From positions 62,001-126,000 of the forward strand of contig JANQLW010000031.1 in NCBI GenBank assembly GCA_028280405.1: 64,000 nucleotides of DNA, in the 5' to 3' direction. Below are positions 10,114 to 57,927 of the stretch, piece by piece. The notes beneath the pieces are model-generated. The model ran no database searches. It was not told the origin of the DNA and saw only the letters and a list, made by a program, of their open reading frames with translations. This DNA is from Bacteroidales bacterium (GTDB taxonomy: Bacteria > Bacteroidota > Bacteroidia > Bacteroidales > GCA-2711565). Position numbers and translations under genes: made by a program. Position 1 is the first letter of the stretch. The number at the start of each line of letters is the position of its first letter.

Positions 10114-10119
10114 AACAAA

Positions 10120-11103: not shown

Positions 11104-11104
11104 A

Positions 11105-11112: not shown

Positions 11113-11137
11113 TAAGAGGAGTCAAAATTTTATTAAT

Positions 11138-11794: not shown

Positions 11795-11803
11795 TTGATT
11801 GAA

Positions 11804-14552: not shown

Positions 14553-14678
14553 TTGCTTTTATAAATATATTTACAACCGTGTTTGGGGCATGAATTATTT
14601 ATTTGTACTCAAAATAAAATAAGTAATTGAATACTGAAATAAGTATGTTCCCTAGTGCAATATATGCATTATTTTGCA

Positions 14679-14686
14679 TACTTTTG
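14679..14686 (+). promoter_or_regulatory. -7 promoter element TActTTTG for the nqr operon
   Basis: TACTTTTG matches TAnnTTTG and lies 26 bases before nqrA. The 25 bases before it contain three TGCA words (in GTGCAATATATGCA and TTGCATAC), which could be part of a regulator site; this is only suggestive. Confidence 0.5.
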
Positions 14687-14712
14687 CTATTTGAAATATT
14701 GACATTAACTAA

Positions 14713-16059: not shown

Positions 16060-16087
16060 TAAATGTTTAATATCATTATATAAATTA

Positions 16088-17224
16088 ATGAAGGCAATAA
16101 GAAAAATATTAGATAATATCAAACCTCATGTTCAAAAGGGTGGAAAATTTGAAATGTTCCATTCTGCTTTTGATGCTGTTGAAACACTACTTTTTGTTCC
16201 TGATCATGTTACAACAAAAGGTAGCCATATCCGTGACGGTGTTGATATGAAGAGAACCATGACTGTTGTTATCCTTGCATTATTACCCACTCTTATTTTT
16301 GGGATGTGGAATGTAGGTCGTTTACACTTTCTTTCTCATGGTGAAACTTTTGAAATAATGGATGCTTTTTGGTATGGATTCTTAAAGGTTCTGCCAATTA
16401 TAATTGTAACATATGTAGTTGGCTTGGGCCTCGAAATTATTTTCGCCCAGCAGAGGGGGCATGAAGTAAATGAAGGCTTTCTTGTTTCAGGGATGTTAAT
16501 TCCTCTTACGTTACCACCTGACATTCCATTATGGATGGTTGCTATTGCAACTGCATTTGCAGTAATCATAGGTAAAGAAGTATTTGGTGGTACCGGAATG
16601 AATATTCTTAATCCTGCTTTAACAGCGCGTGCATTTTTGTTTTTTGCTTATCCTGCGGATATGTCAGGAGACAAAGTCTGGATATCAGAGAAAGCAGATG
16701 CATTCTCCGGAGCAACTCCACTTGGAGATGCCTTAGTTGGAAATTTTGAAAATATTCCAAGCCCAATGGAAATGTTCATCGGAACAATTCCCGGCTCCAT
16801 CGGAGAAACATCAACCTTATTAATAACTTTTGGAGCGATTATTCTTTTAGTTACCGGAGTAGGTAGTTGGAGGATATTACTTTCAACTGTGGTAGGAGCA
16901 TTAGTAATGGGAGGATTATTTAACCTTTGGGGAGAAAATGCATATATGGACATGCCTGCTTATTATCATTTAATTCTAGGTGGTTTTGCTTTTGGCGCTG
17001 TATTTATGGCAACGGATCCGGTTACTGCATCTCAAACAAATAGAGGCAAATACATCTACGGATTCTTAATTGGTTTTATTGCAGTATTAATCCGCGTATT
17101 TAATCCTGCCTACCCGGAAGGGATGATGCTGGCCATCTTATTTATGAATGTGTTTGCTCCTTTAATCGACCATTATGTTATTGAAGCAAATATTAAGAAA
17201 AGACTTAAAAGAGCTAAAGCTTAA
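16088..17224 (+). CDS. nqrB: Na+-translocating NADH:quinone reductase subunit B
   Basis: The 378-residue membrane protein has about ten helices and the covalent FMN attachment motif SGATPLGD, with the flavinylated threonine at T210. The upstream GGTGMNILNPALTARAFLFFAYP is a strongly conserved block. NqrB carries covalent FMN and riboflavin and forms part of the Na+ pathway with D and E. ApbE, encoded a few genes downstream, is the enzyme that attaches the FMN. Confidence 0.97.
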   Translation: MKAIRKILDNIKPHVQKGGKFEMFHSAFDAVETLLFVPDHVTTKGSHIRDGVDMKRTMTVVILALLPTLIFGMWNVGRLHFLSHGETFEIMDAFWYGFLKVLPIIIVTYVVGLGLEIIFAQQRGHEVNEGFLVSGMLIPLTLPPDIPLWMVAIATAFAVIIGKEVFGGTGMNILNPALTARAFLFFAYPADMSGDKVWISEKADAFSGATPLGDALVGNFENIPSPMEMFIGTIPGSIGETSTLLITFGAIILLVTGVGSWRILLSTVVGALVMGGLFNLWGENAYMDMPAYYHLILGGFAFGAVFMATDPVTASQTNRGKYIYGFLIGFIAVLIRVFNPAYPEGMMLAILFMNVFAPLIDHYVIEANIKKRLKRAKA

Positions 17225-17250
17225 TTATTAAAAATATAAAATCCAGAAAT

Positions 17251-17988
17251 ATGCAAAGTAATTTTTATATTTTTCGATATGCAAGTGTGATGGTAATCGT
17301 TGTTGCAGCTATTCTATCTTCCGCAGCAATGCTCCTGAAACCATATCAAGAGAAAAACAAAGCTATTGATAAGATGAAAGGCATTTTAACTTCAGCTAAT
17401 ATTGAAGCGACTTCTGAAAATGCCATTCAACTTTATAAAGATAATATTACGGAAGAAATTGTTATAAATAATAAAGGAGAGATTGTTGAAAGCAAGAAAA
17501 AAGGAGAAGTAGAACCTGGGAAAAGTCTGGCATTCAGCCTTGATCTCAAAAAAGAATTATACAAAAAAGGTAGAGGAGAAGACTTTAACATCCCATTAAT
17601 GGTAGCTGAAACCAATGGCAAAAAAATATTTATTATTCCTTTATTAGGGACCGGCTTATGGGGACCTGTTTGGGGAAACATAGCTGTGAAGGATAACTTC
17701 AGCACTGTCGTTGGTGTAACTTTTGGGCACAAAGCTGAAACTCCCGGCCTTGGTGCTGAAATTGACACCAAAATTTTCCAGGCACAATTTGTGGGAAAAG
17801 AGTTATTCAGAGATGGCAAGTTCCAATCAATAAGTGTAGTTAAAGGCGGTATTGGCACGATGCCAAATGATATGCAAATACATGGCGTAGATGCAATTTC
17901 AGGCGGTACAATTACCAGTGTTGGTGTAAGTGATATGCTTGCCAATTGCCTTGAAAATTATGTTCCATTCATCAATAAACGCAACTAG
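17251..17988 (+). CDS. nqrC: Na+-translocating NADH:quinone reductase subunit C
   Basis: The 245-residue protein has one N-terminal membrane helix (residues about 8-30) and a periplasmic FMN-binding domain. The flavinylation site is SGGTITS with T220 as acceptor, a variant of the usual SGAT. GFGHKAETPGLGAEI-like sequence (FGHKAETPGLGAEI) precedes it, as in other FMN-binding domain proteins. It passes electrons between the D/E iron centre and NqrB. Confidence 0.96.
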   Translation: MQSNFYIFRYASVMVIVVAAILSSAAMLLKPYQEKNKAIDKMKGILTSANIEATSENAIQLYKDNITEEIVINNKGEIVESKKKGEVEPGKSLAFSLDLKKELYKKGRGEDFNIPLMVAETNGKKIFIIPLLGTGLWGPVWGNIAVKDNFSTVVGVTFGHKAETPGLGAEIDTKIFQAQFVGKELFRDGKFQSISVVKGGIGTMPNDMQIHGVDAISGGTITSVGVSDMLANCLENYVPFINKRN

Positions 17989-43924: not shown

Positions 43925-43997
43925 GGGATCGCGTCCCCTTTGGGGAAACGATCCCGGTCGACATTTCGATTCCGCTTCGCTTCACTCAATGACCGGG
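43925..43997. repeat. Dispersed hairpin repeat, copy C
   Basis: The core GGGATCGCGTCCCC / GGGGAAACGATCCC (43925-43955) is in inverted orientation relative to copies A and B. It is followed by GATTCCGCTTCGCTTC and ACTCAATGACCGGG. Confidence 0.8.
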
Positions 43998-44055
43998 TTC
44001 AATAAACTATTGCAAAAACTCGCAACCCGCAACCTGCAATCCGCAACTCGAAACA
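43998..44055. repeat. Tail module of the dispersed repeat, copy C
   Basis: TTCAATAAACTATTGCAAAA followed by CTCGCAACCCGCAACCTGCA is closely matched at 57202-57246. Confidence 0.65.
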
Positions 44056-44172: not shown

Positions 44173-45411
44173 TCAATCATTCAATTTATTTGGGAAAATA
44201 TTAACAGCTAAAAATCCAAATAAACCACTTACTAAAACAATTCCAAAATCTACAATATGATTTTTCAGTTTTGCTTTCCGCTTACGAATTATTAAGAAAT
44301 GTGAACCAAGCAAAACAATATGAAGTATGATCCAATTGAAACCTTTTGTAAGATGAAAGTAAAAGTTAATAAACGCATTGTTTTCATCAACTAAGTTTAA
44401 TTGCAGGGGAAACAAATAACTAAACACTTTTCCTTCAGGTCGCTCTGATCGTTTTTTCCACGATTTATAAAACACATCTACTTTTTCCATATTATCGTCA
44501 AGTACCGTAACTTTCATAAAATCTTCAGCTAATGCAATTACATTATAGTTAAACAAATCGCTATAAATACGTAATTGCTGATTTTCGGGATTAAATTCAT
44601 CAACCGGTAAACGTTTCAGATAATAATCATCCTGGGTAATGATATAAATATTATGATCATGGCCAATCAGGTAACAATAAAACAGCTTATTACGAAAATC
44701 AACACACCCGATATGTTTAAAGATTAATCCTTTGGGGATTTCCACCTGTTGAACATAAGGTTGGCCCTGTTCCATTTTCACATGAAAAACCTGGTCGGCA
44801 TTATCCACCACAAAATAGCCTTCATCACATGATTTCCGGGTTGTAGGAATCCCTTCTATCATTTTCGCAGGAAACTTAAATCCGAAATGCTGTAAGGCAC
44901 CTGTAAATAAAGCTGTTTTTGCTTCATTAATTTTATTTCTGTCTGCATCTATAAATTCCATGCGGGAATTAATTCTGAAGAAATCCTCAGGCATCTCTAG
45001 TTTTGCCCTTCCCGATTCAGATTCAAACATTGGATATAAACCCGGTTTCGGAGCATTCTTGGTACTTGGTTTATACCTGTAGAATGAACGTGCTTTATTT
45101 ACCACATGAGGGTCCATCTCCACACCCTTGATAGAATCCGGTAAAGTTCTGGAAATCATTAACTGCCGAATATTTAGCAATGGAAGTTTTTGTTCAAACT
45201 CTTCACGTGTAAACATTTCCCCATGTTCATTCATCCGGTACGATTTCCCATTTTCCGAACCTCTGATCATAAAACAATCATCCACACAACTATACATTAC
45301 AAATGGCTTTGGAATCGGTTTTTCAAATGATAACCAATAGATCCAGGGTAAAATCACTGATAGTGATATGATGCTTATTACGATTAAATTATATCTACTT
45401 AAATTCTTCAT
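44173..45411 (-). CDS. DUF4857 domain-containing membrane protein
   Basis: The 412-residue protein has one N-terminal helix (residues about 8-28), a large extracytoplasmic region of about 310 residues, and two C-terminal helices (about 350-405). The pattern SYRMNEHGEMFTREEFEQKL near the start and the overall topology fit DUF4857. It has no known activity. In Bacteroidota this domain is typically encoded with an ABC ATPase/permease pair, and here it follows the permease after two bases. It may be the periplasmic partner of that transporter. Confidence 0.75.
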   Translation of the reverse strand: MKNLSRYNLIVISIISLSVILPWIYWLSFEKPIPKPFVMYSCVDDCFMIRGSENGKSYRMNEHGEMFTREEFEQKLPLLNIRQLMISRTLPDSIKGVEMDPHVVNKARSFYRYKPSTKNAPKPGLYPMFESESGRAKLEMPEDFFRINSRMEFIDADRNKINEAKTALFTGALQHFGFKFPAKMIEGIPTTRKSCDEGYFVVDNADQVFHVKMEQGQPYVQQVEIPKGLIFKHIGCVDFRNKLFYCYLIGHDHNIYIITQDDYYLKRLPVDEFNPENQQLRIYSDLFNYNVIALAEDFMKVTVLDDNMEKVDVFYKSWKKRSERPEGKVFSYLFPLQLNLVDENNAFINFYFHLTKGFNWIILHIVLLGSHFLIIRKRKAKLKNHIVDFGIVLVSGLFGFLAVNIFPNKLND

Positions 45412-45413
45412 CT

Positions 45414-46082
45414 CTACATTTCTCCTTTCCTGAATCGATATGCTGAAAACAGCAACGATACACTAATTAATACCGTTAGTAAAGCCAATGGAATATTGAT
45501 GGGTCCATAAGCGCCAATCATACCTGATTTTAAATAGAGAGGCACAAACATGGCTGCTGCAAAAGCGTAAAGAATACGATACTTCCATACGGGTTCCAAT
45601 ACAATTAGACCTACCAAAAAATAAGCTGCTAATCCCGATAAAAACCATGGAGTGATGGTGATTAAGGAAGCCACTGTGATTTCATGTGCGAAATAATAAT
45701 TACTTAACATCCAGAATACCATAAAGTGGAGTAAATAAGTCAGCAGAAGGCAAATCATGCCTACACTTAACATCATCATGAGGGCCCTGTTTTCAAATAA
45801 AGGCAAATGAAAGGTTAGTTTAATTCTTTTATTTACCGTTTCAGGGAAATACTGTGCAACGCCAATTCCTATTCCAATTAAAAGAGGAACGTATTTCATA
45901 ATGCCAAAAATCATTTTATTCAGGAATAATATATTATACCAAACCGCATTGGCACCCTGAAATGTAATTGATCTTTGAACATTCATAAACATATAGGCAA
46001 TTATGAATAAGCCCAATATTGCTGCTCCGATCAGAAACCATCTGATCTTAAGCCATTCTTTATAAATCATTGATTTTAACAT
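45414..46082 (-). CDS. ABC-2-type membrane permease
   Basis: The 222-residue protein has about six hydrophobic helices and an N-terminal IYKEWLKIRW, typical of ABC-2 permeases. It lies 5 bases after the ATPase gene and 2 bases before DUF4857, so the three probably form one complex. The substrate is unknown. Confidence 0.8.
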   Translation of the reverse strand: MLKSMIYKEWLKIRWFLIGAAILGLFIIAYMFMNVQRSITFQGANAVWYNILFLNKMIFGIMKYVPLLIGIGIGVAQYFPETVNKRIKLTFHLPLFENRALMMMLSVGMICLLLTYLLHFMVFWMLSNYYFAHEITVASLITITPWFLSGLAAYFLVGLIVLEPVWKYRILYAFAAAMFVPLYLKSGMIGAYGPINIPLALLTVLISVSLLFSAYRFRKGEM

Positions 46083-46087
46083 ACCCT

Positions 46088-46975
46088 CTAATATTTACCC
46101 GTTAAACCTATAAAAGCATCCTCAAGATTCATGTCGATTTTTTTAAAATCTTTCATCTCAACTCCGTTATCATCAAGGAATTTTTTTACAAATTCTTCTG
46201 ATTCATAAGTATAGAGTTCAACTTCATTATTAACTTTCTCCAAATTCGAAACAAATTTCTCTTTCGACAAATCAACTCCTCCATTTAACAGCGTAAAGTT
46301 GAACTGCTTAAAGTTTTGCATGAACTCATGAACAGGACATTGTGCCAATACCCTGTTATAATCCATGATAAGTACATCATCGATGAGCCGTTCCATATCA
46401 GAAATAATATGGGAAGTTGTAAAAATGGTTTTGTTTTCGGATTTAGCATATGCCCGTAAATAATCAATAAACAAGCGACGATAACCCGGATCCAGGCCCA
46501 TAGAAAAGTCATCTAATATCAACAAGTCAGGGTCCTGGGCTAAAATTAGCCCAAGCGCCACTTGTGATCTTTGTCCACACGACATTGTAGATATTTTCTG
46601 GCTTGGAGTCACTTTAAGTTTTGACATGAGTTCCCAATAGGGTTCATTATTCCAGTTAGGATAAAAACCTGAATAGAATTTTTCAATCTGATGAATATCC
46701 ATAAAAGCATATTGAATATGTCCTTCTATCAAAAAACCAATCCTTCCTTTTGTTTCAGGAGGGAGTTTCTGTGTATTCTCTCCATAAATCAAACACTCTC
46801 CACTACGTGGCTGTAAAAAGCCATTCAATATATTGATCGTGGTAGTTTTCCCTGCCCCATTCTTCCCCAGCAAACCCAATATACTTCCTTCTTTCACATG
46901 TATATTAAGGTTCTCGTAAACAAGCTTCTGACCATAATAATGGGTAAGATTGTTACACTCAATCACATTATTCAT
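46088..46975 (-). CDS. ABC transporter ATPase with atypical motifs
   Basis: The 295-residue protein has Walker A GKNGAGKTT (residues 37-45) and the H-loop H189 in TTSHI. The signature reads MSCGQ (131-135) where LSGGQ is usual. Walker B is LLILDD (151-156), so the position of the catalytic glutamate holds aspartate. A C-terminal extension of about 80 residues is present. The deviations could slow hydrolysis or be family-specific. It pairs with the permease at 45414. Confidence 0.88.
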   Translation of the reverse strand: MNNVIECNNLTHYYGQKLVYENLNIHVKEGSILGLLGKNGAGKTTTINILNGFLQPRSGECLIYGENTQKLPPETKGRIGFLIEGHIQYAFMDIHQIEKFYSGFYPNWNNEPYWELMSKLKVTPSQKISTMSCGQRSQVALGLILAQDPDLLILDDFSMGLDPGYRRLFIDYLRAYAKSENKTIFTTSHIISDMERLIDDVLIMDYNRVLAQCPVHEFMQNFKQFNFTLLNGGVDLSKEKFVSNLEKVNNEVELYTYESEEFVKKFLDDNGVEMKDFKKIDMNLEDAFIGLTGKY

Positions 46976-46986
46976 AAAATTTTTAA

Positions 46987-48540
46987 TTAAAATGTTATAC
47001 CTGTACTAATACTGAATATCGTACGGGATTGGCCATTACCCTTATAAATATTCACATTCGATTTTATAAAATATTGATCAAATACTTTCTTCATTGGAAT
47101 TTCTAACGCAAAGCCCATTTTAGGGGCATAGTAATCGCTGGTTAAAAATTCATAATCCGGAGCTAAAATTTTCTCAGCTATAAATGTATAGTCGGTTAAA
47201 TTTAGTTCTCCATCCAAATTAAATTTGTAATCAAAGCCTAATGAAAGAGAAAATGTAGACTTTCCGATCATTAAGTTCTTATCAATGGAAGCACTCAGTT
47301 TAAGATTCTTGAAATTTTCTTTTTGCATAGGAATATAGTATTGCTCGCTGAAGCTATGATAAGTACCTTTAAACTTGAATGAATAGTTTCGCTCATTTTT
47401 ATTTTTCAATTTAAGGTATTCGAAAAATACATTCATCTTAATATCTTCACCTTTATACTTTTCTTCTTCACCATAAGTAACCCACTGATCAAGCTGATTT
47501 TGCCCGACTCTTTCAAGATGTTGAATGATTTCAATTCCAAGCATCGTGTTAACATTTAACTCAAAACCAAAATGTTTAATATGATTTTTACTTTTTATAC
47601 TGGTATAATTATAAATATCAAACTGAATCCCTTTTAGTTTTGAATCATCTTTTATAGCAGACCAGATTGCACCGGAAGCCTTTCTGCCATCACCATTTGT
47701 TTCTTTATAATACAAGAACTTAGATCCGAACAGCGTTTCAAATTTCTTTTTGGAGAAAGCAAGTTGAAAATCAAATCCTGCGGAATTTCTTTTTTGAAGT
47801 CTGTTGAAATTTTCTGATTCATGACTTATAGCCAGACCCAGTCCATGAGTAGAAAAGAATGTAGCATCCGTATTTTCCTGTATAATTCTAACTTCAATTT
47901 CTTCATTATAGTATTTATAAAGCATATTGAAACCAATTTTAAGCTTATCCTTTGTATAAATGATACCAGGGGATACAGTCATATTAAACACCTTATTTAC
48001 AGGCCTGGGATCTCTGTCCTGCACTGATAATCCGACTCTGAAATCCATGCCTAATCCCAAAATTAAATTCTTTTTAATAGGAGTAGATATTCCAGCTACC
48101 ACACTAAAGAATTCGCGACTATATTCATCATTTCCAATAGTATCTATCAAATGATATGGTGATAAGCGAAACGGATCATCCACATTTGAAAAATCCAATC
48201 CTTTTTCAACATTTCTTTCATAATTAAAGCTACCATAAACATTAAAGTTTTTGGTTTTCGCATATGAAAGTGTATTAAAATTAAACTGGTTTATTTTATC
48301 ACCCCGCTGAACGCGTTTATACTTACCATCTTCAATCAGGTAGCTCGCATTAATGATTCCGGGTAATAAATCATGCATTTGGCTAAAAGCAGCCGGATTA
48401 CTGGAGTTTAACCATAGGTTTTGCAAACGAATTAATTCGAACGAATGCAACGATACTTTTTGCAAGCTGTCAGATGCAGCCATTAAGGTAATACCCATAT
48501 TCAAGATGAATAATACCGATAATATTTTCTTTTTATTCAT
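46987..48540 (-). CDS. DUF6850-family outer membrane beta-barrel protein
   Basis: I use ATG 48540 (MNKKKILSVLFILNMGITLM), which gives a proper signal peptide and a protein of about 517 residues. This start overlaps the end of the DUF4876 gene by eight bases, which suggests coupled translation. The first mature part HSFELIRLQNLWLNSSNPAAF and the barrel pattern fit DUF6850. The protein ends in a terminal aromatic strand (SISTGITF). No activity is known; an outer membrane partner of the TonB receptor is the simplest guess. Confidence 0.75.
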   Translation of the reverse strand: MNKKKILSVLFILNMGITLMAASDSLQKVSLHSFELIRLQNLWLNSSNPAAFSQMHDLLPGIINASYLIEDGKYKRVQRGDKINQFNFNTLSYAKTKNFNVYGSFNYERNVEKGLDFSNVDDPFRLSPYHLIDTIGNDEYSREFFSVVAGISTPIKKNLILGLGMDFRVGLSVQDRDPRPVNKVFNMTVSPGIIYTKDKLKIGFNMLYKYYNEEIEVRIIQENTDATFFSTHGLGLAISHESENFNRLQKRNSAGFDFQLAFSKKKFETLFGSKFLYYKETNGDGRKASGAIWSAIKDDSKLKGIQFDIYNYTSIKSKNHIKHFGFELNVNTMLGIEIIQHLERVGQNQLDQWVTYGEEEKYKGEDIKMNVFFEYLKLKNKNERNYSFKFKGTYHSFSEQYYIPMQKENFKNLKLSASIDKNLMIGKSTFSLSLGFDYKFNLDGELNLTDYTFIAEKILAPDYEFLTSDYYAPKMGFALEIPMKKVFDQYFIKSNVNIYKGNGQSRTIFSISTGITF

Positions 48541-49708
48541 AAATCCAAGGTTTAGGGTCCACATCTTTTTCAAAATCTACGGTAGAGTTATTCGTATCCT
48601 GATATACAACTCTTCCATCTACTACATATTTAACTTTACGACGAATACATTTCCCGGACTTCGACCCTGCTATTATATATGTATATCCGGCATCTAAGTC
48701 AGGAGAGAATCGTTTATACTGTGCCCGGGCTTCATCTCTGATTACTTCTACCGCATCAACTATTAAGCTTTTCTCCAAAGTACAATACAACCTGGTACTC
48801 GTTGATTCCGGTTTTCTGATTAAATGATTATTAATATAATCTGCACGTTCTGTTGCATCATTTGAAATTCGTGCCAAAGCAATTGCACTGGTTCCACTAA
48901 CACCAAAAGTAACATCTATGCCTCTGAATGTAAATAGTTCTTCCAGCATATTTGGAACTGCAGGGTTATCAATATCACGGCCGCTTGGATGATCTACCCA
49001 AAACTCGAAATCAGCATTTCCCAGATCTACAGAGCTTAACGGATTTCCCAGAGGATCACTTTTATGATCAAAAGCATCACGGGCAATCACAATACTTTCA
49101 CCCGGATTTATGGGAACATCATCACCATCACCAGGAATGGTCCATATCATTTTAACGACAATATCATCAGGCAAGAATTCCCATATATTTGTTTTTGTTC
49201 CTGTTGATTCATGTTCAACAATTGATAAACCGTCTGCATATTGAACGACTGCCGAATTATTGTAGATTTCAATATACTGGCCTTCGTAATATGATTTATT
49301 TGCAGGAGTTTTCGTTCCACTGTAATAAAATTCTTTTATGATGAGCGGATTGGATGTGCTTAAAATGACAGGTAGTGTTTCTTTCACTTCAGCAAACACT
49401 GAGAATTCAAACATCGCATTCAAATTACTATTATTAAGCCCATCTTCATATTGATGGCTCATTGTTGCAGTGTAGAACCCAGGTTCTACCATTGTGAATT
49501 TTACATTACCTTCAGCGTCAACAATAGCTTCCTGTGAATATTTTTTTTCCACATTATTTAAGAAAACCTTTGCCCCAACTATAGATTCTAGTGTAATCTC
49601 AACATTCGTTGGGATATTAAATTCAACATTATAAGCATTGAACTCAGGATCTTTCATACAGGATGAAAAGATCAGTACAACTGAAATTATATATAATATT
49701 TTCTTCAT
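48533..49708 (-). CDS. DUF4876 lipoprotein
   Basis: The 391-residue lipoprotein has lipobox FSSC with the cysteine at about residue 17. Residues 20-110 resemble a carboxypeptidase-regulatory-like Ig domain (NVEFNIPTNVEITLESIVGA). The rest has the DUF4876 pattern LIIKEFYYSGTKTPANKSYY, GQYIEIYNNSAVVQYADGL. Later GRDIDNPAVPNML and RFSPDLDAGYTY follow, a fold similar to lamin-tail domains. A surface-exposed binding lipoprotein for the adjacent receptor is plausible. It lies 5 bases after the receptor gene. Confidence 0.78.
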   Translation of the reverse strand: MKKILYIISVVLIFSSCMKDPEFNAYNVEFNIPTNVEITLESIVGAKVFLNNVEKKYSQEAIVDAEGNVKFTMVEPGFYTATMSHQYEDGLNNSNLNAMFEFSVFAEVKETLPVILSTSNPLIIKEFYYSGTKTPANKSYYEGQYIEIYNNSAVVQYADGLSIVEHESTGTKTNIWEFLPDDIVVKMIWTIPGDGDDVPINPGESIVIARDAFDHKSDPLGNPLSSVDLGNADFEFWVDHPSGRDIDNPAVPNMLEELFTFRGIDVTFGVSGTSAIALARISNDATERADYINNHLIRKPESTSTRLYCTLEKSLIVDAVEVIRDEARAQYKRFSPDLDAGYTYIIAGSKSGKCIRRKVKYVVDGRVVYQDTNNSTVDFEKDVDPKPWIYE

Positions 49709-49713
49709 AGCAT

Positions 49714-52464
49714 TTAAATTTTAATTCTAAGTTCTGCACCAAAATAAATTGAAGGATTTCGTCTTATATAAGATTCGCTTCTGGTAAACTTATAGCGTGG
49801 TCGATAATTGGTAAAGTTGTTTACATATAAACTCAAGCGCATATTATTAGAAATCTCTTTGGAAATGCGGATGTTTGCCATAAATAAAGGAGACATCACT
49901 TCTTTTTCCCAGTACAGGTCTGATTTTTCAGTTACATAGCGAACATACTGAGGATCCGTACGCATCTCGGTTGTAAATGTGATGGTATTTCCATCTTTAT
50001 TTACTAAGTAAGTTGGGATCTTATCATAAAATGGATAATAGTATTTATCAAACCAGATCATTTGAAGTGTTGTAGCAACAATTAATCTCAAGCTGGGAAT
50101 TTGCGTTACCATTCGCAGATTGGTATTCAAACGCTCACTTACTTTACTTTCACCTGCTGCATAAACACCTATATATTCATATTGTTGACTAGTGCCACTG
50201 CTTGGTAAATAATAAAGACCCCGTGTGCTTAAAATTCTGGTTGTTTTGAACCAGGCTCCATCTAAATTAAAGCTTGTATATAAAGATTTGATTTCCCCTA
50301 ATTGCAAGTCAAACTCTATCCCTTTTTTTATAGAACTTTTCAAATTAAACGGCTTCTGATAGCTTACAAGATAATTTTTGATTTCTGTGCTTATGGTAGA
50401 TAAATCAGGAAGCGTTCCTGCAGGAATTTCGCTGGCATCATATATATCATAACTAACGGATTCATATTGTCTTGCAAAGCCAAATCCATTCGTTAACTTT
50501 TCATGAAAAGCAGTAATATTACCTTTAATACCACCTATATTAAAATCAATACCTATTTCTTTTTTTAGGTTTTCAGAAGGTTTAAGGTCAGGATTAGAAG
50601 TATCATAAACTTCAGTATGGAACACGACCATGCTTGTTTCTAAATCTCCGGTATACCAATCCAGTGCTTTTAAGTCTTTATAAGCTTCGTCGGGATCCAG
50701 ATAAAGCAAAGAAGGAGCTTTATATGTTTTACCGATTCCAAAATTCAGGCTAAAATCCTTAATTAGTTTTGTTCTTCTGTTTTTAAAGATCTGATAACTC
50801 ATATTAAAACGAGGCTCTACATAAAATCCAAGGTCTGATTTAAATAAACCTGCAGCCTGGAAATTATTGATCCGCGCACCTGCCTGAACAGTTAAACGTG
50901 TACTTCCAATAGGAAAAGCGAACTTATCTTCAACATAAAAAGAAAGCGTTTTAAGGGAAGGAGAATCCTTAAAAGAAGTTGGCCTTGATGTACTACTGGA
51001 CACATATGGAGGATTGGTTATATCATAAATCTGTCCATCCCCAGTATTATGCGTATACTTGAAATCAACACCGTATAATAATGTATTGATGGTTTTATTT
51101 TTGAAATTATTTACTTTTCGGGCAGTAATTTGTCCGAATATATTAAGTGGACGACCATCAATCGTTAATTCTGTCAATTGTTCCGAAGGAAGATAAATAC
51201 CAATATTTTCTCCAGGGACTTTAGCTAATGAAAGACCCACAAGCCCGCTGGAACTACGATATCTCTTTTGGTAATTTTCCTGATGTGTTGTAGATAGTGA
51301 AAATGAATATTTAATATTTGTAGCCAACTTTTTGTTTAATTGCCATATTCCATGAATATTAATGCGACTCCCATTTTCTTTTGCTTTATACTCTTCATCA
51401 TTGGTCATTGCATCCGGATCTGTTTTGCTTTCATCTATCGTTTTAAAATAACTGTACTTCAGGTTAAACGATAATGGATTATTTCCTTTGGAAAATGTTT
51501 TTGACCATGCAATAGAACCTGTTAATCTATCATAGCTATCAAATGTGCTTCTTAAGTCCTGATGAGATTTCAAAAATTCCATATCAACATTGAGAGAGCT
51601 ATTTTCACTCAATAAAAATCCTTTTCCAACAGCAAACTGTTTTATTTTAGGATCGGTCTTAACTTTTAAATTAAGTGGTGCTCTACCTGCTTTTGTTTTT
51701 ACAACAACAGCTCCTGAAGTAAGATCACCGTAGACTACAGATGGAATACCTTTAATCACTTCAATAGATTCGATATTCTCCGTAGGAATACCACGTAAGT
51801 CAATACCCTCACCAGCAACAGTGGTCGCAGCGCCAGTACTGGATTGCGAACCTTTATGATGAGCTGTACTTAAACCCTGCAAGTTACCATCATTGGATAT
51901 AGGAGCACCATCGATGATAATTGCTGTTCCTAATGCACTATTTATATCACTTCCAATTTCACGAATTGCTAATTGTTGAGGTCGTGAAAGGTCAGGGTTA
52001 AGCGCTAAATTACCTGGTAATAATTGTAATATATCACCAAGGCTGGTTGGTTGAACATGTTCAATTGCAGCATTACCAAGAGTTGTCGAGGTATTTATAT
52101 TTTTTCCTCTTTGAGCAATAATTACGACTTCCTTCATATCAAAGGAAGTTGGTGCAATTCTCAATGCTAGTTTTTTACCCTTGGATTTATTGAAGTCAAA
52201 GGTCAACGAATATTTTTCATATCCTAAACATTCTGTTTCAATCGTATAAATTTCAGGTTTGATGTTTTTAAGGATAAAATTTCCTTTTTCATCAGTCGTT
52301 GTCCACTTCTCAATTTCTTTAATGTGTACTACACAAAACATTACCGGCTCATTGGTTTTTTTGTCAATGACCTGACCTTCAAGATCAATATTTTGTTGAG
52401 CATAAAGATGACCGAGCATCAACAGTGGAAACAACAAAAAGGTCAATATTAATTTTTTTACCAT
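49714..52464 (-). CDS. TonB-dependent receptor of the DUF4876/DUF6850 operon
   Basis: The 916-residue protein has a signal peptide ending HLYAQQ. A carboxypeptidase-like domain follows at about 28-115, and the plug at about 125-260 (GDILQLLPGNLALNPDLSRP, IREIGSDINSALGTAIIIDG, GIDLRGIPTENIESIEVIKG). A barrel ends SIYFGAELRIKI. A TonB-box-like segment MKEVVIIAQRGKN precedes the plug. It is the first gene of the six-gene operon that reaches to 44173. Ligand unknown. Confidence 0.88.
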   Translation of the reverse strand: MVKKLILTFLLFPLLMLGHLYAQQNIDLEGQVIDKKTNEPVMFCVVHIKEIEKWTTTDEKGNFILKNIKPEIYTIETECLGYEKYSLTFDFNKSKGKKLALRIAPTSFDMKEVVIIAQRGKNINTSTTLGNAAIEHVQPTSLGDILQLLPGNLALNPDLSRPQQLAIREIGSDINSALGTAIIIDGAPISNDGNLQGLSTAHHKGSQSSTGAATTVAGEGIDLRGIPTENIESIEVIKGIPSVVYGDLTSGAVVVKTKAGRAPLNLKVKTDPKIKQFAVGKGFLLSENSSLNVDMEFLKSHQDLRSTFDSYDRLTGSIAWSKTFSKGNNPLSFNLKYSYFKTIDESKTDPDAMTNDEEYKAKENGSRINIHGIWQLNKKLATNIKYSFSLSTTHQENYQKRYRSSSGLVGLSLAKVPGENIGIYLPSEQLTELTIDGRPLNIFGQITARKVNNFKNKTINTLLYGVDFKYTHNTGDGQIYDITNPPYVSSSTSRPTSFKDSPSLKTLSFYVEDKFAFPIGSTRLTVQAGARINNFQAAGLFKSDLGFYVEPRFNMSYQIFKNRRTKLIKDFSLNFGIGKTYKAPSLLYLDPDEAYKDLKALDWYTGDLETSMVVFHTEVYDTSNPDLKPSENLKKEIGIDFNIGGIKGNITAFHEKLTNGFGFARQYESVSYDIYDASEIPAGTLPDLSTISTEIKNYLVSYQKPFNLKSSIKKGIEFDLQLGEIKSLYTSFNLDGAWFKTTRILSTRGLYYLPSSGTSQQYEYIGVYAAGESKVSERLNTNLRMVTQIPSLRLIVATTLQMIWFDKYYYPFYDKIPTYLVNKDGNTITFTTEMRTDPQYVRYVTEKSDLYWEKEVMSPLFMANIRISKEISNNMRLSLYVNNFTNYRPRYKFTRSESYIRRNPSIYFGAELRIKI

Positions 52465-52704
52465 ATTTTTTATTTTTTAATTGTTCACATAGGTCATTTC
52501 CAATTACTAAATTGAAAACAGCATATGAATTACAAGAAAGAATAGAAAACCTATTATTACTATAAAATGCTTATTATAATAGTTTACGATCTACAGACTT
52601 ATATCTAAAAATCCTACCATCATTAAGTCTGCTTTATTTAAACATCTTGAAAAAGACATTTAATTCAGTCATGCTATATATTGTGCATGGGGAGCTTATG
52701 TAAC

Positions 52705-52813
52705 ACAGCTTGTAGCTGTTATCCTTTGCAGATATTTCTCTGCAAACTTTAACTCAGTCCGGGGGATTCCTCATCCCAATTGTTTGCAGACTGCACCATT
52801 GCCATTGAGGCAA
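52705..52813 (-). promoter_or_regulatory. Leader with mutually exclusive hairpins (riboswitch-like)
   Basis: On the minus strand TTGCC/GGCAA (52799-52813) forms a first hairpin. The segment TCTGCAAAC (52782-52790) is fully complementary to GTTTGCAGA (52739-52747), enclosing a second hairpin GGGAT/ATCCC (52763-52777). The CTGCAAA at 52725-52731 can instead pair with the TTTGCAG at 52740-52746. A final hairpin ACAGCT/AGCTGT is at 52705-52719. Two alternative partners for one segment is the layout of a switch or attenuator. No known riboswitch class was recognised. The TonB receptor starts about 240 bases downstream. Confidence 0.45.
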
Positions 52814-52850
52814 AGGAGGAAAATAAAATTAAGGGCGTAATTTTATTCAT
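52749..52850 (-). CDS. Candidate 33-residue exported peptide
   Basis: A short frame encodes a signal-like peptide (MNKITPLILFSSFASMAMVQ) followed by SANNWDEESPGLS. It overlaps the structured leader at 52705-52813, so it may be a leader peptide, the start of a lost gene, or chance. Confidence 0.3.
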   Translation of the reverse strand: MNKITPLILFSSFASMAMVQSANNWDEESPGLS

Positions 52851-52930
52851 AGTTTTCGGTTTTTTAATTAACATTTGGTTTATAGGTTATGTTTTTAATG
52901 TAATGGCCTTTTACATTAATAAATTTCTAA

Positions 52931-54868
52931 CTATTTCCCTTGTAGATCATCAATCTTAACATGCTTAAAATCAAACATATTTTTAACCACTCCTTTTTTC
53001 CCACTGCTATATGAAAAATGTAACGAATCACATTTTATCAGGTTAAGGACATCCACTTTTGTCATTACCGTATCTACATAATGTATTTCTAACATTTGCT
53101 TCAAATCATTATTAAGAAGGCTTCTTATTCCCAGTATTGCATTTTTATTGTATAGATGTGAAGCCAGGTATTTCAGGCTTTTTGTTTTAGATTTATTTCT
53201 ACCCAAAGGAATAAGGAAACGTCCGATTACATCATCGGTATAATTTTTCTTACGGGAAAATTCTGCATCATAAGGCTTGAACATCAATTTTGCATAATCA
53301 GCAATTGATATATTCTCATAACTATAATCTCCTATGACGATATAACCCAATTCAACAGTTCTCTTAGTTTCTCTATAAGTATATGTCAACTTATCTGATT
53401 CCAGTATCTTCGTTAATTTCTCCTCATCAACATCAACATCCAGAGGGAAGAAGATATTTGCAATGACAGGACATCCGTATTTTGTTTCAATTCCTACAGC
53501 ATTCGTTTCCTGTTGTAATAATTTTGCCAGATAATTAAAATCGAACGTATCAAAAAACTTATCGAGCTGAATATTTACTTTTTGAACTCCTTTTGCATTT
53601 CCAGGTAATGTACGGATAGGAGACTTCATTGGAGTAAAAATTGCACTCTCTACCTTAGACTCATCTATTACTTTTGGATCATAAAAGATTTTTACTGTCT
53701 TCGTTCCTACATAAGCAGTTACTCCCATTACTCCATTCACTTTTTGCATTTGATTTGCAAATGATGCACAGCTTCCATAACATTTAATGCTTTTCAATCC
53801 CGAACGGGAATAAACTTCTGCTTTCGCAAGATCAGAAGAATCAGCCCATTTCCGATCGATTGTCGGCACTTCAAAAAATGAACTAATGTATAATGCTAAT
53901 AGAAATAATATGGTAACAGCAATTGGAGCCAACCATTTGAGTTTATTAGTCTTATTAATTTGAAGTGTATTTTTTGCCGGACAAGCTATCACACATTCAC
54001 TACACAAATTACAGTCTACATCACGTACTTCCTTCATGTTTGCCACATCAATATTCTGAGGACATTTTATAGAACATAACTGACAATCTGTACAACTATC
54101 TTCATTACGGGTAACTTTAGCAACAGGGAAAAACTTAGTTTTAAATCCGCTTATTTCAATGATGAAACCTCCGACACATGCAACAGTCAATGGCCATACA
54201 TAAGACATCTCGATTCCTGCTTTTAATAAGATGATATAAACAGCCATAACTAAGACAAAAAATCCTGTAAACTTGAAAATATTAGCTAAAGCTCCAAACG
54301 GACAAATATATTTGCACCAAAACATATTGATGAAAATAGAGCCAATAATAACGAGGAAAATAGCGATGGAAGCATACATAACAACTACATCCATATCAAA
54401 ACCGGTTGTTGCGGCATAAAACGGATCAAACTTTTTACAAAACAATTCACTTGAATCTAATGTATAATAAAGTGTAATAAATAATAACACATATTTTAGT
54501 GAACGTAAAGCTTTATCAAGGATTCCACTCACATTAATTTCAATCTTTAACTTCTTTCCGAGTTTACTCAGGGGTTCGGTTATGGTACCGATCGGACAAA
54601 TAAACGAACAAAATAATTTACTGAAAAGGAATACACCTACCATCATGGCAATACCCATCACAATTTGAATACTGGTCATTGAACAGGTTAATGAGTTATT
54701 AAGAAAATAACTTCCCAGGGCCTGAAGTCCTCCAAACGGACAATACGCCTCAAAGTCAGGAACATAAGAAGTAAGCGCTTGAATAATTACTAAAATTAGT
54801 ACATACAAAATGACACCCCATTGAAACGCCAGTCTAGGCCAATTTGATTTTGATAGTTTGAATTTCAT
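52931..54868 (-). CDS. Multi-helix ferredoxin-type protein with HMA-like metal-binding domain
   Basis: The 645-residue protein has a NapH/NosR-like membrane part (residues 1-250) with YCPFGGLQ (C43), FICPIGT and YICPFGA. A double [4Fe-4S] ferredoxin follows at about 259-300 (CTDCQLCSIKCP and CNLCSECVIACP). After one more helix comes a domain of about 60 residues with KCYGSC (cysteines at about 362 and 366) and a beta-alpha-beta pattern resembling heavy-metal-associated (HMA) domains, and then about 200 residues of unknown fold. It probably moves electrons across the inner membrane to a periplasmic metal or metal complex. Start and end are intact. Confidence 0.82.
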   Translation of the reverse strand: MKFKLSKSNWPRLAFQWGVILYVLILVIIQALTSYVPDFEAYCPFGGLQALGSYFLNNSLTCSMTSIQIVMGIAMMVGVFLFSKLFCSFICPIGTITEPLSKLGKKLKIEINVSGILDKALRSLKYVLLFITLYYTLDSSELFCKKFDPFYAATTGFDMDVVVMYASIAIFLVIIGSIFINMFWCKYICPFGALANIFKFTGFFVLVMAVYIILLKAGIEMSYVWPLTVACVGGFIIEISGFKTKFFPVAKVTRNEDSCTDCQLCSIKCPQNIDVANMKEVRDVDCNLCSECVIACPAKNTLQINKTNKLKWLAPIAVTILFLLALYISSFFEVPTIDRKWADSSDLAKAEVYSRSGLKSIKCYGSCASFANQMQKVNGVMGVTAYVGTKTVKIFYDPKVIDESKVESAIFTPMKSPIRTLPGNAKGVQKVNIQLDKFFDTFDFNYLAKLLQQETNAVGIETKYGCPVIANIFFPLDVDVDEEKLTKILESDKLTYTYRETKRTVELGYIVIGDYSYENISIADYAKLMFKPYDAEFSRKKNYTDDVIGRFLIPLGRNKSKTKSLKYLASHLYNKNAILGIRSLLNNDLKQMLEIHYVDTVMTKVDVLNLIKCDSLHFSYSSGKKGVVKNMFDFKHVKIDDLQGK

Positions 54869-54898
54869 TTATATATTTTTTAGGCTTTTGTAAAATGA

Positions 54899-55231
54899 TT
54901 ATTTGAATATATAAGCCCGGTCGACTAATAAGTGATGGCTTATTTTGTACTCTATTAATGATCTGTTTTTCTTGTTTTCTTTAGATGTAAATAAATTTGT
55001 ATCCGCATTTTTACCCAATACAACTCCCAGAAAAACACCAGCGGCCAATACAGCAGCAATTTGTAGATAAACAGCAAGGTTCTTTCTTACCTTTCTATGG
55101 GGTTTTATATTTGTACAATGAGATAAAATCTTATCGGTAAGGTTTTCAGGAACCTGGAATTCTTCATCCAGAATACTTAAAGTAGTTTCTACTTTTTCAT
55201 TCAGGTCCCCGATATTTTTTAGTTCTTTCAT
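54899..55231 (-). CDS. Small membrane-anchored protein, possible anti-sigma type
   Basis: The 110-residue protein has a soluble N-terminal part of about 45 residues with a short coiled-coil-like start (EKVETTLSILDEEFQVPENL). One helix lies at about 52-73 and a short basic tail follows. The layout resembles small membrane anti-sigma or accessory proteins, but I do not recognise the family. It lies 30 bases before the ferredoxin-type gene and downstream of the ECF sigma factor and the Spy-like gene. Confidence 0.5.
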   Translation of the reverse strand: MKELKNIGDLNEKVETTLSILDEEFQVPENLTDKILSHCTNIKPHRKVRKNLAVYLQIAAVLAAGVFLGVVLGKNADTNLFTSKENKKNRSLIEYKISHHLLVDRAYIFK

Positions 55232-55334
55232 TCTAATTATTATTCTTTATAAAATGATCATATTGAAAATCTATTTGGATTTACATATAACTACAAGACG
55301 ATCCTAATTTTAAAATCTGGCGTTTAATATTAAT

Positions 55335-55859
55335 TTATTTTTCATCTAGTTTCTTAAGTGACTCACGTCGTGAGCAATACTTTTTATTACAATATTTACA
55401 TTGATCGTCGAGTTCCATCATATCCTTGATCAATTTATCAAGCAAATGAGATTGTTCTTCCGTACAAACACTTCTGATATTCATGAAATGTTTAATGGTT
55501 TGCCGCTTGAGTCCGGTATGCAGGTTTCCTATTTGTTTGGCAAGAGAGTCCATATATTGCATATTCGGTTGTTCAGAGCACAATTCTTCCAATATTTTAA
55601 AATTGGACTCACATTGCATATCCAGGATATTTTGATAAACCCTGAAAATTTTATGATCCATAGAACTAACTTCTTTATACTGTTCCTCAGTAAGATTGAG
55701 TGCTTCTTTTAGAAATTCATTTGATTTAAAATGCTCAGTTGAGTTCGAATCAATAGGATCAGATTTACTATTCATCAGCAAAAGAGTCGTAAAAGCTGAA
55801 ATATTTATGACCAGCAAAAATATGCTTAGCCAATTGATTATACGTTGTTTTTTACTCAT
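55335..55859 (-). CDS. Spy/CpxP-like periplasmic protein
   Basis: The 174-residue protein has an N-terminal membrane anchor (residues about 8-30) and a helical domain with FLKEALNLTEEQYKEVSSMD, the LTxxQ motif typical of Spy/CpxP and heavy-metal-resistance periplasmic proteins. The C-terminus holds a cysteine cluster, CKYCNKKYC, unlike ordinary Spy proteins, which may bind metal. It starts 6 bases after the sigma factor gene, and membrane-anchored proteins of this type can act as the anti-sigma sensor of ECF factors (CnrX-like). This is inferred from position. Confidence 0.68.
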   Translation of the reverse strand: MSKKQRIINWLSIFLLVINISAFTTLLLMNSKSDPIDSNSTEHFKSNEFLKEALNLTEEQYKEVSSMDHKIFRVYQNILDMQCESNFKILEELCSEQPNMQYMDSLAKQIGNLHTGLKRQTIKHFMNIRSVCTEEQSHLLDKLIKDMMELDDQCKYCNKKYCSRRESLKKLDEK

Positions 55860-55865
55860 CGCGAA

Positions 55866-56444
55866 TTAGTTTAATTGATTCTTGAAATATGAAAACAATG
55901 ACTTTCTTAAATTAGTTTTTGCACGATAAATAAGAGATTCAACAGAAGTCTGACTAAGATTAAGGGCCTTACAAATTTCCTTTTGGGAATAGTCCTCAAA
56001 CTTATGCATAAGCAGTACTTTCTTCTGTTTTTCAGGTAAAGAATCTATTGCCTGAAAAAGTACTTGTCTGGCTTCGGCATCCTCCAGTTTACGTGCAGGT
56101 GTATTCTGTTCTGTATTTTTTTGACTTATTTTATTCTGAATGGCAGCACTTTGGATATCAGTGGCCATTTGTGCTTTAGCAGGATTTCGCTTACGAAGAA
56201 AACTGATCGATTTATTTTTGGTAATTTTAAACAACCATCCTGAAAGGTCATCTTCATTTCTAAGTTTATGAATGGACTTAAACACTTCAAGGAATACCTC
56301 CTGACAAATATCCTCTGCATCAGAAGTATTCCCAACAATACGATACGAAGAACCAAAAACAAGATTCTTATACTTCTCGATTAAAAGCCTGAAACTGGGT
56401 TCGTGTTTTCGTATAATGCCTTTTATGATTAGCTTATCTTCCAT
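55866..56444 (-). CDS. ECF-type RNA polymerase sigma factor
   Basis: The 192-residue protein has region 2 (YKNLVFGSSYRIVGNTSDAE, DICQEVFLEVFKSIHKL, GWLFKITKNKSISFLRK). Region 4 reads DSLPEKQKKVLLMHKFEDYS and QKEICKALNLSQTSVESLIY. This is a sigma-70 family extracytoplasmic function factor. It follows the lipoprotein gene after 11 bases and precedes the Spy-like gene by 6, forming a regulator unit that probably controls the ferredoxin-type gene and perhaps the TonB receptor operon downstream. Confidence 0.9.
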   Translation of the reverse strand: MEDKLIIKGIIRKHEPSFRLLIEKYKNLVFGSSYRIVGNTSDAEDICQEVFLEVFKSIHKLRNEDDLSGWLFKITKNKSISFLRKRNPAKAQMATDIQSAAIQNKISQKNTEQNTPARKLEDAEARQVLFQAIDSLPEKQKKVLLMHKFEDYSQKEICKALNLSQTSVESLIYRAKTNLRKSLFSYFKNQLN

Positions 56445-56455
56445 TCAGAAGTATA

Positions 56456-56884
56456 TTATTTTTGCAATAATCCTTGCTTGCGAAGAAAGGCTTCGGCTTT
56501 TTCTTTGGTTTGAAATAAATCACCATCCTTTTCCCACCAGGTTTCCCCGTATGACATTCCCATTTGATTACATCCTTCTTTTGGGCCAATATTCACACTT
56601 TCCATGGCTTTCATTTTAATCTCATCTTTTTTAATGCGGATGATCTTTGCTTTCACAGGTAAGCCATGCTGAGGAATTCCATTTTTATCCACAGCTACTA
56701 CAACACCATAACATTCTATCCCTTTTTTTGCCCAATCTCCAATTTTAGCTTTTAATGCGGCACTCATTTCAACATTTGGCTCCTTATAGTCATAAGTTGC
56801 CGTTTTTTCTGATTTATTACCCGAATTACAACCACTAATCGTTATTGCCACTAACAGTGCAATGACTGATATCCATTTTTTCAT
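56456..56884 (-). CDS. Small lipoprotein before the ECF sigma factor
   Basis: I use ATG 56884, giving MKKWISVIALLVAITISGC and a lipobox cysteine at residue 19; an upstream in-frame start at 56905 adds seven residues. The mature part of about 124 residues contains WAKKGIECYGVVVAVDKNGI and ends GDLFQTKEKAEAFLRKQGLL. No family was recognised. It is the first gene of the minus-strand block. Confidence 0.6.
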   Translation of the reverse strand: MKKWISVIALLVAITISGCNSGNKSEKTATYDYKEPNVEMSAALKAKIGDWAKKGIECYGVVVAVDKNGIPQHGLPVKAKIIRIKKDEIKMKAMESVNIGPKEGCNQMGMSYGETWWEKDGDLFQTKEKAEAFLRKQGLLQK

Positions 56885-57048
56885 AAGTTTTTTAGTTAGG
56901 TTCACGTACTATAGACGCAAGGCCTGAAAAAATCTGGCGCTATCTTAATATAAAAAGGTGTAATATGTCAAATTTTTAAAACTAATTGCTTAAAAATTAA
57001 GGGCATTGAAATCAAATAAAATGTCTAAAAATTGGAAAAAAGATGTAT

Positions 57049-57125
57049 GGGATCGGTTCCTCTTTGAGGAATCGATCCCGGAAGAAACTCATTTCGATTC
57101 CGCTTCGCTTCACTCAATGATCGGG
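57049..57125. repeat. Dispersed hairpin repeat, copy D
   Basis: The core GGGATCGGTTCCTC / GAGGAATCGATCCC (57049-57079) has changes in both arms that keep pairing. It is followed by GATTCCGCTTCGCTTC and ACTCAATGATCGGG as in copy C. Confidence 0.75.
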
Positions 57126-57201
57126 TTTAGCAAACTCAACTCCCAAATTATCGAGTGAAAGCGAAGTATAATTTTATATAAAAGCATGTCCCCTCGAACG
57201 A

Positions 57202-57246
57202 GTTCAATAGGCTATTGCAAAAACCTGCAACTCGCAACCTGCAACC
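57202..57246. repeat. Tail module of the dispersed repeat, copy D
   Basis: TTCAATAGGCTATTGCAAAA followed by CCTGCAACTCGCAACCTGCA matches 43998-44055. Between copy D and its tail lie about 75 extra bases. Confidence 0.65.
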
Positions 57247-57321
57247 AAAAATTTGAATAAACCGGCTTAAGCCGAACTCACATTATTTTAAATTCAGATT
57301 AGCATAATTCCTTTAACTTTT

Positions 57322-57345: not shown

Positions 57346-57927
57346 ATGGTCGCATACAATTCTCTTTCTGATCTTGAGTTGTCAGCCTTCTTAAAGACAG
57401 GTGATCATGAGGCATTTGCTGAAATTTATGAGCGGTATTTTGGCTTGTTATACCTACATGCTTTTAAGCGGCTAAGAGATGAAGAAGGAGCAAAGGATGT
57501 GGTTCAGGAACTCTTTGCCACACTTTGGTCAAAAAGGGAAACCTTGGTATTTAAGACCAATCTTTCGAATTATTTATATACGGCTATCCGTAACCGGGTT
57601 TTGGATGTGATTGCACATAAACAAGTGGAGTCCAGGTATATTTCAAGCCTCCCTCAATTTATTAAAACCGATACCTGCCAGACAGATCACCGTTTAAGGG
57701 AAAAGCTATTGGCAGAGATGATTGAAAAAGAGATACAAGAGCTACCTCCCCGGATGCGGGAAGTTTTTGAACTCAGTAGAAAAGCAAACCTCTCTCACAA
57801 AGAAATTGCCGATCAATTAAACCTATCCGAACAGTCGGTAAGAAGCCATATAAAAAACGCACTAAAAAGACTAAGAAATAAAATTGGTTTTATACTATAT
57901 GTGATGTGTTTACTCAATAATCACTGA
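57346..57927 (+). CDS. ECF sigma-70 factor, Bacteroides family 1
   Basis: The 193-residue protein has region 2 (GDHEAFAEIYERYFGLLYLH, AKDVVQELFATLWSKRE) and region 4 (ELPPRMREVFELSRKANLSH, EIADQLNLSEQSVRSHI). These are the marks of sigma factors that pair with FecR anti-sigma proteins and SusC-type receptors, here at 59891 and 61280. Ligand binding by the receptor would release this factor. The usual tight order is broken by the DUF4143 ATPase gene in between. Confidence 0.92.
   Translation: MVAYNSLSDLELSAFLKTGDHEAFAEIYERYFGLLYLHAFKRLRDEEGAKDVVQELFATLWSKRETLVFKTNLSNYLYTAIRNRVLDVIAHKQVESRYISSLPQFIKTDTCQTDHRLREKLLAEMIEKEIQELPPRMREVFELSRKANLSHKEIADQLNLSEQSVRSHIKNALKRLRNKIGFILYVMCLLNNH

Follow-up and report, generated by a model that had tools for sequence, protein, structure and literature searches.

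What does a run of minus-strand genes encode in which a sigma-factor module, a membrane ferredoxin and a TonB-linked transport block stand side by side, and do these genes belong to one system at all? The question is raised by positions 44173–56905 of a 64,000-nucleotide stretch from a Bacteroidales bacterium (assembly GCA_028280405.1, contig JANQLW010000031.1, positions 62,001 to 126,000 of the forward strand), referred to here as the window. The eleven genes of this region, all on the minus strand, form one conserved system, and the cluster is real, widely conserved and undescribed. On balance, we slightly favor the view that it takes up a metal complex, most likely of iron, in a TonB-dependent manner, with reduction in the periplasm by its ferredoxin protein and control by a sensor-gated regulon. 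A preliminary description of this DNA had put forward a single undescribed trans-envelope system under regulation by extracytoplasmic function (ECF) sigma factors of its own, a proposal that is supported by the conservation of both gene blocks and by a predicted dedicated ECF switch.

Gene content and organization

Open reading frame (ORF) and family searches bore out the genes, order, strand and families of that description, apart from the count: twelve genes had been claimed and eleven were counted, the extra one being a 33-aa ORF that aligns start to start with a secreted protein of relatives, here termed C0. Four proteins are given short names, LIPO for the small lipoprotein, SPY for the small helical cysteine-rich protein, smTM for the protein with one transmembrane (TM) helix and FER for the ferredoxin-HMA protein. 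In the order of transcription, block 1 comprises LIPO, the ECF sigma factor, SPY, smTM and FER, and after a gap of 466 bases block 2 comprises the TonB receptor, DUF4876, DUF6850, the ATP-binding cassette (ABC) ATPase, the permease and DUF4857. The features are as follows.

56914–56938, minus: candidate ECF promoter 1 (GCCAGATTT-N-TGCGTC) before the lipoprotein-ECF-sensor genes; same place and spacing in relatives
56456–56905, minus: LIPO, small lipoprotein, lipobox C26
55866–56444, minus: ECF sigma factor in CnrH-like position (Pfam Sigma70_r2 and r4_2; NCBIfam sigma70-ECF)
55335–55859, minus: SPY, CnrX-like sensor (alignment, model, structure comparison)
55297–55321, minus: candidate ECF promoter 2 (GCCAGATTT-N-ATCGTC) before the anti-sigma and ferredoxin genes (pattern match)
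54899–55231, minus: smTM, anti-sigma factor in CnrY-like position, one TM helix (zinc motif of relatives)
52931–54868, minus: FER, NapH/NosR/CcoG-like membrane ferredoxin with C-terminal HMA-like domain (families, alignment)
52750–52851, minus: 33-codon ORF, probable remnant of the first part of a C0 gene (alignment)
52465–52930, minus: intergenic leader (folding against shuffles)
49714–52464, minus: TonB-dependent receptor with carboxypeptidase-like N-terminal domain (Pfam)
48533–49708, minus: DUF4876 lipoprotein (Pfam; PDB 4q1z)
46987–48540, minus: DUF6850, predicted outer-membrane barrel (by family)
46088–46975, minus: ABC ATPase (families)
45414–46082, minus: small ABC permease, 222 aa
44173–45411, minus: DUF4857 protein (Pfam; model)

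All six transport genes of block 2 are adjacent, and their DUF families were matched with E-values of 4e-85 (DUF4857), 3e-80 (DUF6850) and 6e-44 (DUF4876) in Pfam. The other matches are to a TonB receptor (plug and barrel), an ABC ATPase, an ECF sigma factor and a NapH-type ferredoxin with an HMA-like domain. The spacing described earlier, 2 to 11 bases with one 8-base overlap, holds for block 2 (2, 5 and 11 bases, an 8-base overlap with the start at 48540, and 5 bases) but only partly for block 1, where 11, 6, 103 and 30 bases separate the genes. The plural in “ECF regulators” did not stand either. A second ECF gene (57346–57927, plus strand) is of the FecI/Sus type (TIGR02985) and is not conserved upstream of the cluster in relatives; it was rejected as a member of the system.

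Conservation of the neighborhood

The FER alignment was scanned over one genome per species (84,980 species) and returned 266 relatives. The best 80 were taken together with flanks of up to 10 kb per side, and each ORF of these 80 loci, 36 of which have flanks of at least 8.5 kb on both sides (long-flanked loci), was searched with profiles of the eleven proteins. In 27 of the 36 long-flanked loci among these best 80 of 266 relatives, three or more of the six transport genes lie within 10 kb of FER; half of the 36 (18) hold all six transport genes, and 18 hold all four regulatory-side genes. Transport genes are also present in 30 of the 32 loci with an ECF-SPY pair, the remaining two being cut by contig ends. 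As DUF4857 is rare, occurring in six of 396 sampled Bacteroidia genomes and five of 60 relatives, this linkage is not background.

The carriers of linked FER-transport loci belong to Bacteroidota and Calditrichota, and at least four gene orders were found among FER-centered loci. The order of the window, LIPO-ECF-SPY-smTM-FER-(C0)-TonB-DUF4876-DUF6850-ABC-permease-DUF4857, is the first. The second keeps the LIPO-to-FER start and continues with ABC-permease-DUF4857-TonB-DUF4876-DUF6850. Calditrichota have TonB-DUF4876-DUF6850-C0-ABC-permease-DUF4857-FER, and Marinifilaceae have ECF-SPY-smTM-TonB-DUF4876-DUF6850-FER, to which the arrangement in Butyricimonas is similar, with a 95-aa ORF in the place of smTM. 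FER and the next transport gene are only 14–58 bases apart in several genomes, which suggests one transcript there. The conserved co-occurrence proposed as a check in the preliminary description was thus found, both blocks standing together in many Bacteroidota genomes, and the recurrence of the same neighborhood in dozens of genomes and two phyla settles the question of a chance arrangement.

A predicted CnrYXH-type switch with a cysteine-based sensor

The ECF sigma factor, the anti-sigma factor and the CnrX-like sensor make up a putative CnrYXH-type switch, the ECF sigma factor and the one-TM anti-sigma factor adjoining SPY. The predicted model of SPY (pLDDT 85) has one N-terminal TM helix and a helical-hairpin periplasmic domain. 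The top 11 Foldseek matches of this model are all CnrX or NccX, each with probability 1.00 and modest E-values (0.008 to 0.05), and a second aligner (VIA) gave Z 11.0 over 105 residues to CnrX, 9.5 to Spy and 8.5 to CpxP; helical bundles score easily, and these fold scores are not decisive by themselves. The reading as a CnrX-like sensor gains weight from the gene context, namely the neighboring ECF sigma factor and one-TM protein, the latter with HxxxCxxC in its relatives. This cysteine-tailed protein, earlier labeled “Spy-like”, thus has its nearest fold match in CnrX. In an alignment of 26 sequences, C83, C154, C157 and C162 of SPY are invariant and C132 nearly so, and the Met/His/Glu metal site of CnrX is not conserved, with no invariant His, Met or Glu. 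SPY would resemble CnrX in its working but is not classed as CnrX.

HxxxCxxC is a mark of zinc-type anti-sigma factors, and its presence in relatives identifies smTM, previously called just a small membrane protein, as the anti-sigma factor. The smTM of the window is without the N-terminal zinc-motif region that its closest relatives have; the sequence before its start codon (55232–55296) may be a decayed remnant of that region. LIPO has invariant C65 and C112 besides the lipobox C26 among 22 homologues, and it matched no family at cut-off and no PDB relative.

The arrangement resembles CnrYXH and NccYXH of Cupriavidus, in which an ECF sigma factor, a one-TM anti-sigma factor and a one-TM periplasmic sensor of CnrX fold are also encoded together and promoters of the same sigma factor precede its own genes, the latter being a sequence pattern here. 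It differs in that the sensor relies on four to five conserved cysteines in place of a His/Glu/Met site, in the HxxxCxxC zinc motif of the anti-sigma factor in many relatives, and in the target, which is a TonB/ferredoxin/ABC system here and an RND efflux pump there. A literature search found no ECF/Spy-like sensor systems in Bacteroidetes.

The likeness to CnrX raises the alternative of stress defense, in which the sensor would detect a harmful metal or oxidized thiols, FER and the ABC unit would either reduce and expel the metal or mend the envelope, and the TonB receptor would be secondary. The best-known CnrX-type switch controls efflux, the ABC ATPase resembles ATPases of exporters such as PmtA and GldA, and one lineage has the cluster or FER alone after a TetR-RND efflux set. 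However, the TonB receptor and the surface lipoprotein are among the most constant partners, which points to uptake, and homologous blocks are induced by iron starvation, so that we regard this explanation as unlikely.

Candidate promoter motif and regulon

The promoter pattern GCYRGWTT-N13-CGTC was read from sequences upstream of LIPO, and the smTM sites are therefore an independent test of it. The pattern occurs twice in the window, before LIPO (56938–56914) and before smTM-FER (55321–55297). Its looser form also gave two matches, against 0.16 expected, and no shuffle reached two. The candidate LIPO promoter has the same place and the same spacing in relatives, and across the annotated loci (2.7 Mb, both strands counted) each of the 23 exact matches precedes LIPO or smTM. 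In a second subclade, smTM is preceded at this position by the variant CCGCARGTTT...TTGTCTTT. In the 3.87-Mb genome that holds the window, three matches were found, the third of which lies inside a glutamine synthetase gene and was set aside as chance. As the other genomic matches are confined to the LIPO and smTM sites, the ECF factor appears to serve the cluster locus alone, and with a motif this short and a regulon of a single locus, the switch is readily testable.

FER and the choice of metal

FER has seven TM helices, two 4Fe-4S motifs, Fer4_5 membrane motifs and a C-terminal HMA-like domain. Sixteen cysteines are invariant in 75 homologues, 15 in the membrane and cluster part and one in the HMA-like domain. 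Judged by eye from hydropathy and the positive-inside rule, the 4Fe-4S motifs are cytoplasmic, a TM helix lies near residues 312–332, and the HMA-like half should then be periplasmic. The scores for NapH, NosR and CcoG (46.6, 42.0 and 15.8 bits) are far below the NCBIfam cut-offs of at least 213, so FER is a relative and not a member of these families. It shares with them the membrane C-x3-C-P motifs and the two 4Fe-4S motifs, and differs in the added TM helix and C-terminal HMA-like half of about 310 residues and, from NosR, in the absence of the flavin domain. The HMA-like part matches HMA domains of copper ATPases weakly. Its CxxC metal site is not kept, only the first cysteine being present, as K-C-[YF]-G-S in nearly all sequences.

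Copper is the main rival metal: a cupric complex would be imported, FER would reduce Cu(II) in the periplasm in the manner of CcoG or CrpH, and the cysteine sensor would read copper. The relation of the HMA-like domain to copper ATPase domains, the cysteine-rich sensor, the small cysteine-rich exported proteins that precede orphan FER genes, the heme-copper oxidases of the same genome, and the coupling of a TonB copper importer with a PepSY_TM protein in B. pertussis (PMC13038864) are in its favor. However, five of the 21 carriers show no heme-copper oxidase, including genome G055, which has a complete cluster, and the homologous transport blocks respond to iron depletion. We consider copper rather unlikely as the substrate.

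A lead to iron comes from DUF4857 loci without FER, six of which have PepSY_TM next to this transport block; one locus (L113) has FER and PepSY_TM together. Those PepSY_TM proteins whose function is known act on ferrisiderophores, which they reduce in the periplasm; for one of the family, copper has been proposed (PMC13038864). By its published annotation, B. thetaiotaomicron BT3625–BT3633 is a PepSY_TM-type locus with DUF4857, ABC, PepSY_TM, DUF4876 and a TonB receptor; it is up 37–128 fold in iron depletion, with values of 14–19 in the colitis column of the same table, and P. gingivalis PG1019–1022 is up 20–214 fold (PMC10434189). The transport block is thus among the strongly iron-responsive loci of one gut Bacteroides and also rises in colitis. 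DUF4876 and the TonB receptor are common to both of these loci and the cluster; BT3625–BT3633 further shares DUF4857, the ABC ATPase and, where the permease would stand, a small protein, and DUF6850 is present in such loci of other genomes. The differences are PepSY_TM in the place of FER, the lack of an ECF-CnrX module, an unrelated small lipoprotein and, for such loci analyzed here, a separate branch of the ABC tree. Homology of LIPO to that lipoprotein was rejected, the signal peptides alone aligning. A literature search turned up no functional test of the DUF4857/DUF4876/DUF6850 block.

As PepSY_TM fills the slot of FER in the version induced by iron starvation, FER likely acts as a reductase, and by the same analogy iron is more likely than copper. 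The acquisition and reduction of a metal complex, suggested in the preliminary description as the simplest function, accordingly finds support in this shared slot, in the cysteines that are invariant in the ferredoxin and HMA parts, and in the CnrX-like sensor. FeoB is present in 20 of the 21 carriers and a heme-copper oxidase in 16, tallies that weigh little between iron and copper because FeoB is common in Bacteroidota.

Proteins of the transport block

The TonB receptor has a weak barrel match to FepA, and DUF4876 has a solved relative, PDB 4q1z (E 5e-75), deposited only as “putative lipoprotein”. The permease matched no Pfam family and no PDB relative by profile. DUF4857 is modeled (pLDDT 89) with one N-terminal TM helix, a large beta-rich domain expected to be periplasmic, and two C-terminal TM helices; structure comparison gave weak propeller-like matches with a TM-score of about 0.25, and the sequence profile gave no convincing PDB relative. 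The ABC ATPase is 82% identical to its homologue in another family. In the ABC ATPase tree, all 22 FER-linked sequences form a single clade on one side of a branch with support of 100/98, and the other DUF4857 transporters, from PepSY_TM or reductase-less loci, are on other branches. By this tree, FER and PepSY_TM mark two branches of one transporter family, and the existence of a ferredoxin-type branch suggests that importers of this kind can swap their reductase for an unrelated one.

Reductase-less blocks were also observed. The same genome has a second transport block (locus L037, C58:82000–101500, at 7507–17933) with an ABC ATPase 59% identical, no FER, PepSY_TM or ECF module alongside, and a CARDB protein with a type IX secretion system (T9SS) tail preceding it. 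In locus L141 (G131:C2, 16430–17646), a reductase-less DUF4857 block is followed by peroxiredoxin-like and Dps-like genes.

Proposed mechanism

In the favored reading, the TonB receptor, the DUF4876 lipoprotein and the DUF6850 barrel, joined in relatives by a secreted propeller protein, would bind and import a metal complex, most likely ferric. Low-potential electrons would travel within FER from the two cytoplasmic 4Fe-4S clusters by way of the membrane cysteines to the periplasmic face, where the HMA-like domain with its one invariant cysteine may bind the metal, which would be reduced and released; FeoB, found in nearly all carriers, could then import Fe2+. The ABC ATPase, permease and DUF4857 may carry out a linked ATP-driven step at the inner membrane, either recycling or export of the ligand or entry of the metal. 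The CnrX-like sensor may feel periplasmic metal or the thiol redox state through its cysteines, relieve the anti-sigma factor and so free the ECF factor, which would transcribe the lipoprotein-ECF-sensor genes and the anti-sigma-FER genes, with probable read-through into the transport genes. For this last step, the gene layout in several genomes favors one transcript.

TonB and PepSY_TM systems of the FoxB, FpvG and XusABC type likewise combine import across the outer membrane with reduction in the periplasm by an inner-membrane protein, as would apply here. The present reductase is instead a NapH/CcoG-like iron-sulfur protein with an HMA-like domain, and DUF6850, the ABC unit and DUF4857 are additional. 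Tentatively, the cluster may represent a new class of TonB-dependent metal acquisition, with an iron-sulfur membrane protein feeding low-potential electrons from the cytoplasm to its own periplasmic HMA-like domain, an ABC unit with DUF4857 as a new subunit, and a cysteine-based CnrX-type sensor for this locus only. If true, three families of unknown function, DUF4857, DUF4876 and DUF6850, would gain a shared, testable role, and the ferredoxin-type branch points to control of an uptake machinery by a CnrX-type sensor, a kind of sensor known from metal efflux.

Several points weigh against this reading. Known CnrX-type switches are triggered by too much metal and turn on its efflux, not its uptake (PMC7689651). 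The data on iron response were obtained for the PepSY_TM branch and not the FER branch, and we infer both the substrate and the electron transfer. The HMA domain and the cysteine-rich sensor would suit copper as well, and no ECF promoter with up to two mismatches was found before the TonB receptor. In addition, FER stands alone, without transport genes, in at least eight of the 36 long-flanked loci and thus has a function outside the system.

Leader and C0

The 466-base gap had been described as a structured leader. Its RNA does fold more stably than shuffles (z -4.2), and no Rfam family was matched even at permissive thresholds, so that a known riboswitch was rejected; it most likely derives from a lost gene. 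The full leader sequence occurs once in its own genome and is absent from six relatives. In relatives, C0, a secreted YCF48/BNR protein of about 790 aa with a T9SS tail, is encoded exactly at the position of the 33-codon ORF (52851–52750, 33 aa, MNKITPLILFSSFASMAMVQSANNWDEESPGLS). This ORF aligns start to start with several C0 proteins, with 47% identity over 34 residues to the C0 of G055 and a best E-value of about 0.006 against another C0 member, the target being short. Locus L053 shows a comparable gap, 442 bases long, that contains a 31-codon ORF resembling a signal peptide, and both small ORFs are best read, with modest confidence, as C0 relics.

C0 bears on a further explanation, that the locus serves the assembly and export of surface proteins or fimbrillin, as one study labeled the B. 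thetaiotaomicron locus, with no nutrient import. Secreted proteins with T9SS tails are indeed present in many of these loci. However, the secreted gene is missing in the window, L053 and L064 with the rest of the cluster intact, and this explanation leaves the TonB receptor, FER, PepSY_TM and the CnrX-like sensor unaccounted for, which makes it very unlikely.

Other observations

Orphan FER genes are preceded by genes for small exported proteins (L114:8659–9057, L121:9243–9623, L047:9908–10234 and L048:9601–9945), very cysteine-rich in L114 and L121, and these four loci also have a divergent histidine kinase gene; a second FER function linked to thiols or soft metals is possible. In one lineage (L075–L094), a TetR-TolC-MFP-RND efflux set, often accompanied by a PG0541-family protein, immediately precedes the cluster or FER alone, an adjacency that may reflect shared ancestry of the neighborhood only.

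Imperfect direct repeats (43962–44052 and 57090–57257, 79–91% over 47–62 bases) flank the whole cluster of the window, and related copies are found elsewhere on the same contig. Together with the absence of DUF4857 from the five other sampled genomes of the genus, the flanking repeats hint that the cluster has moved or recombined as a unit.

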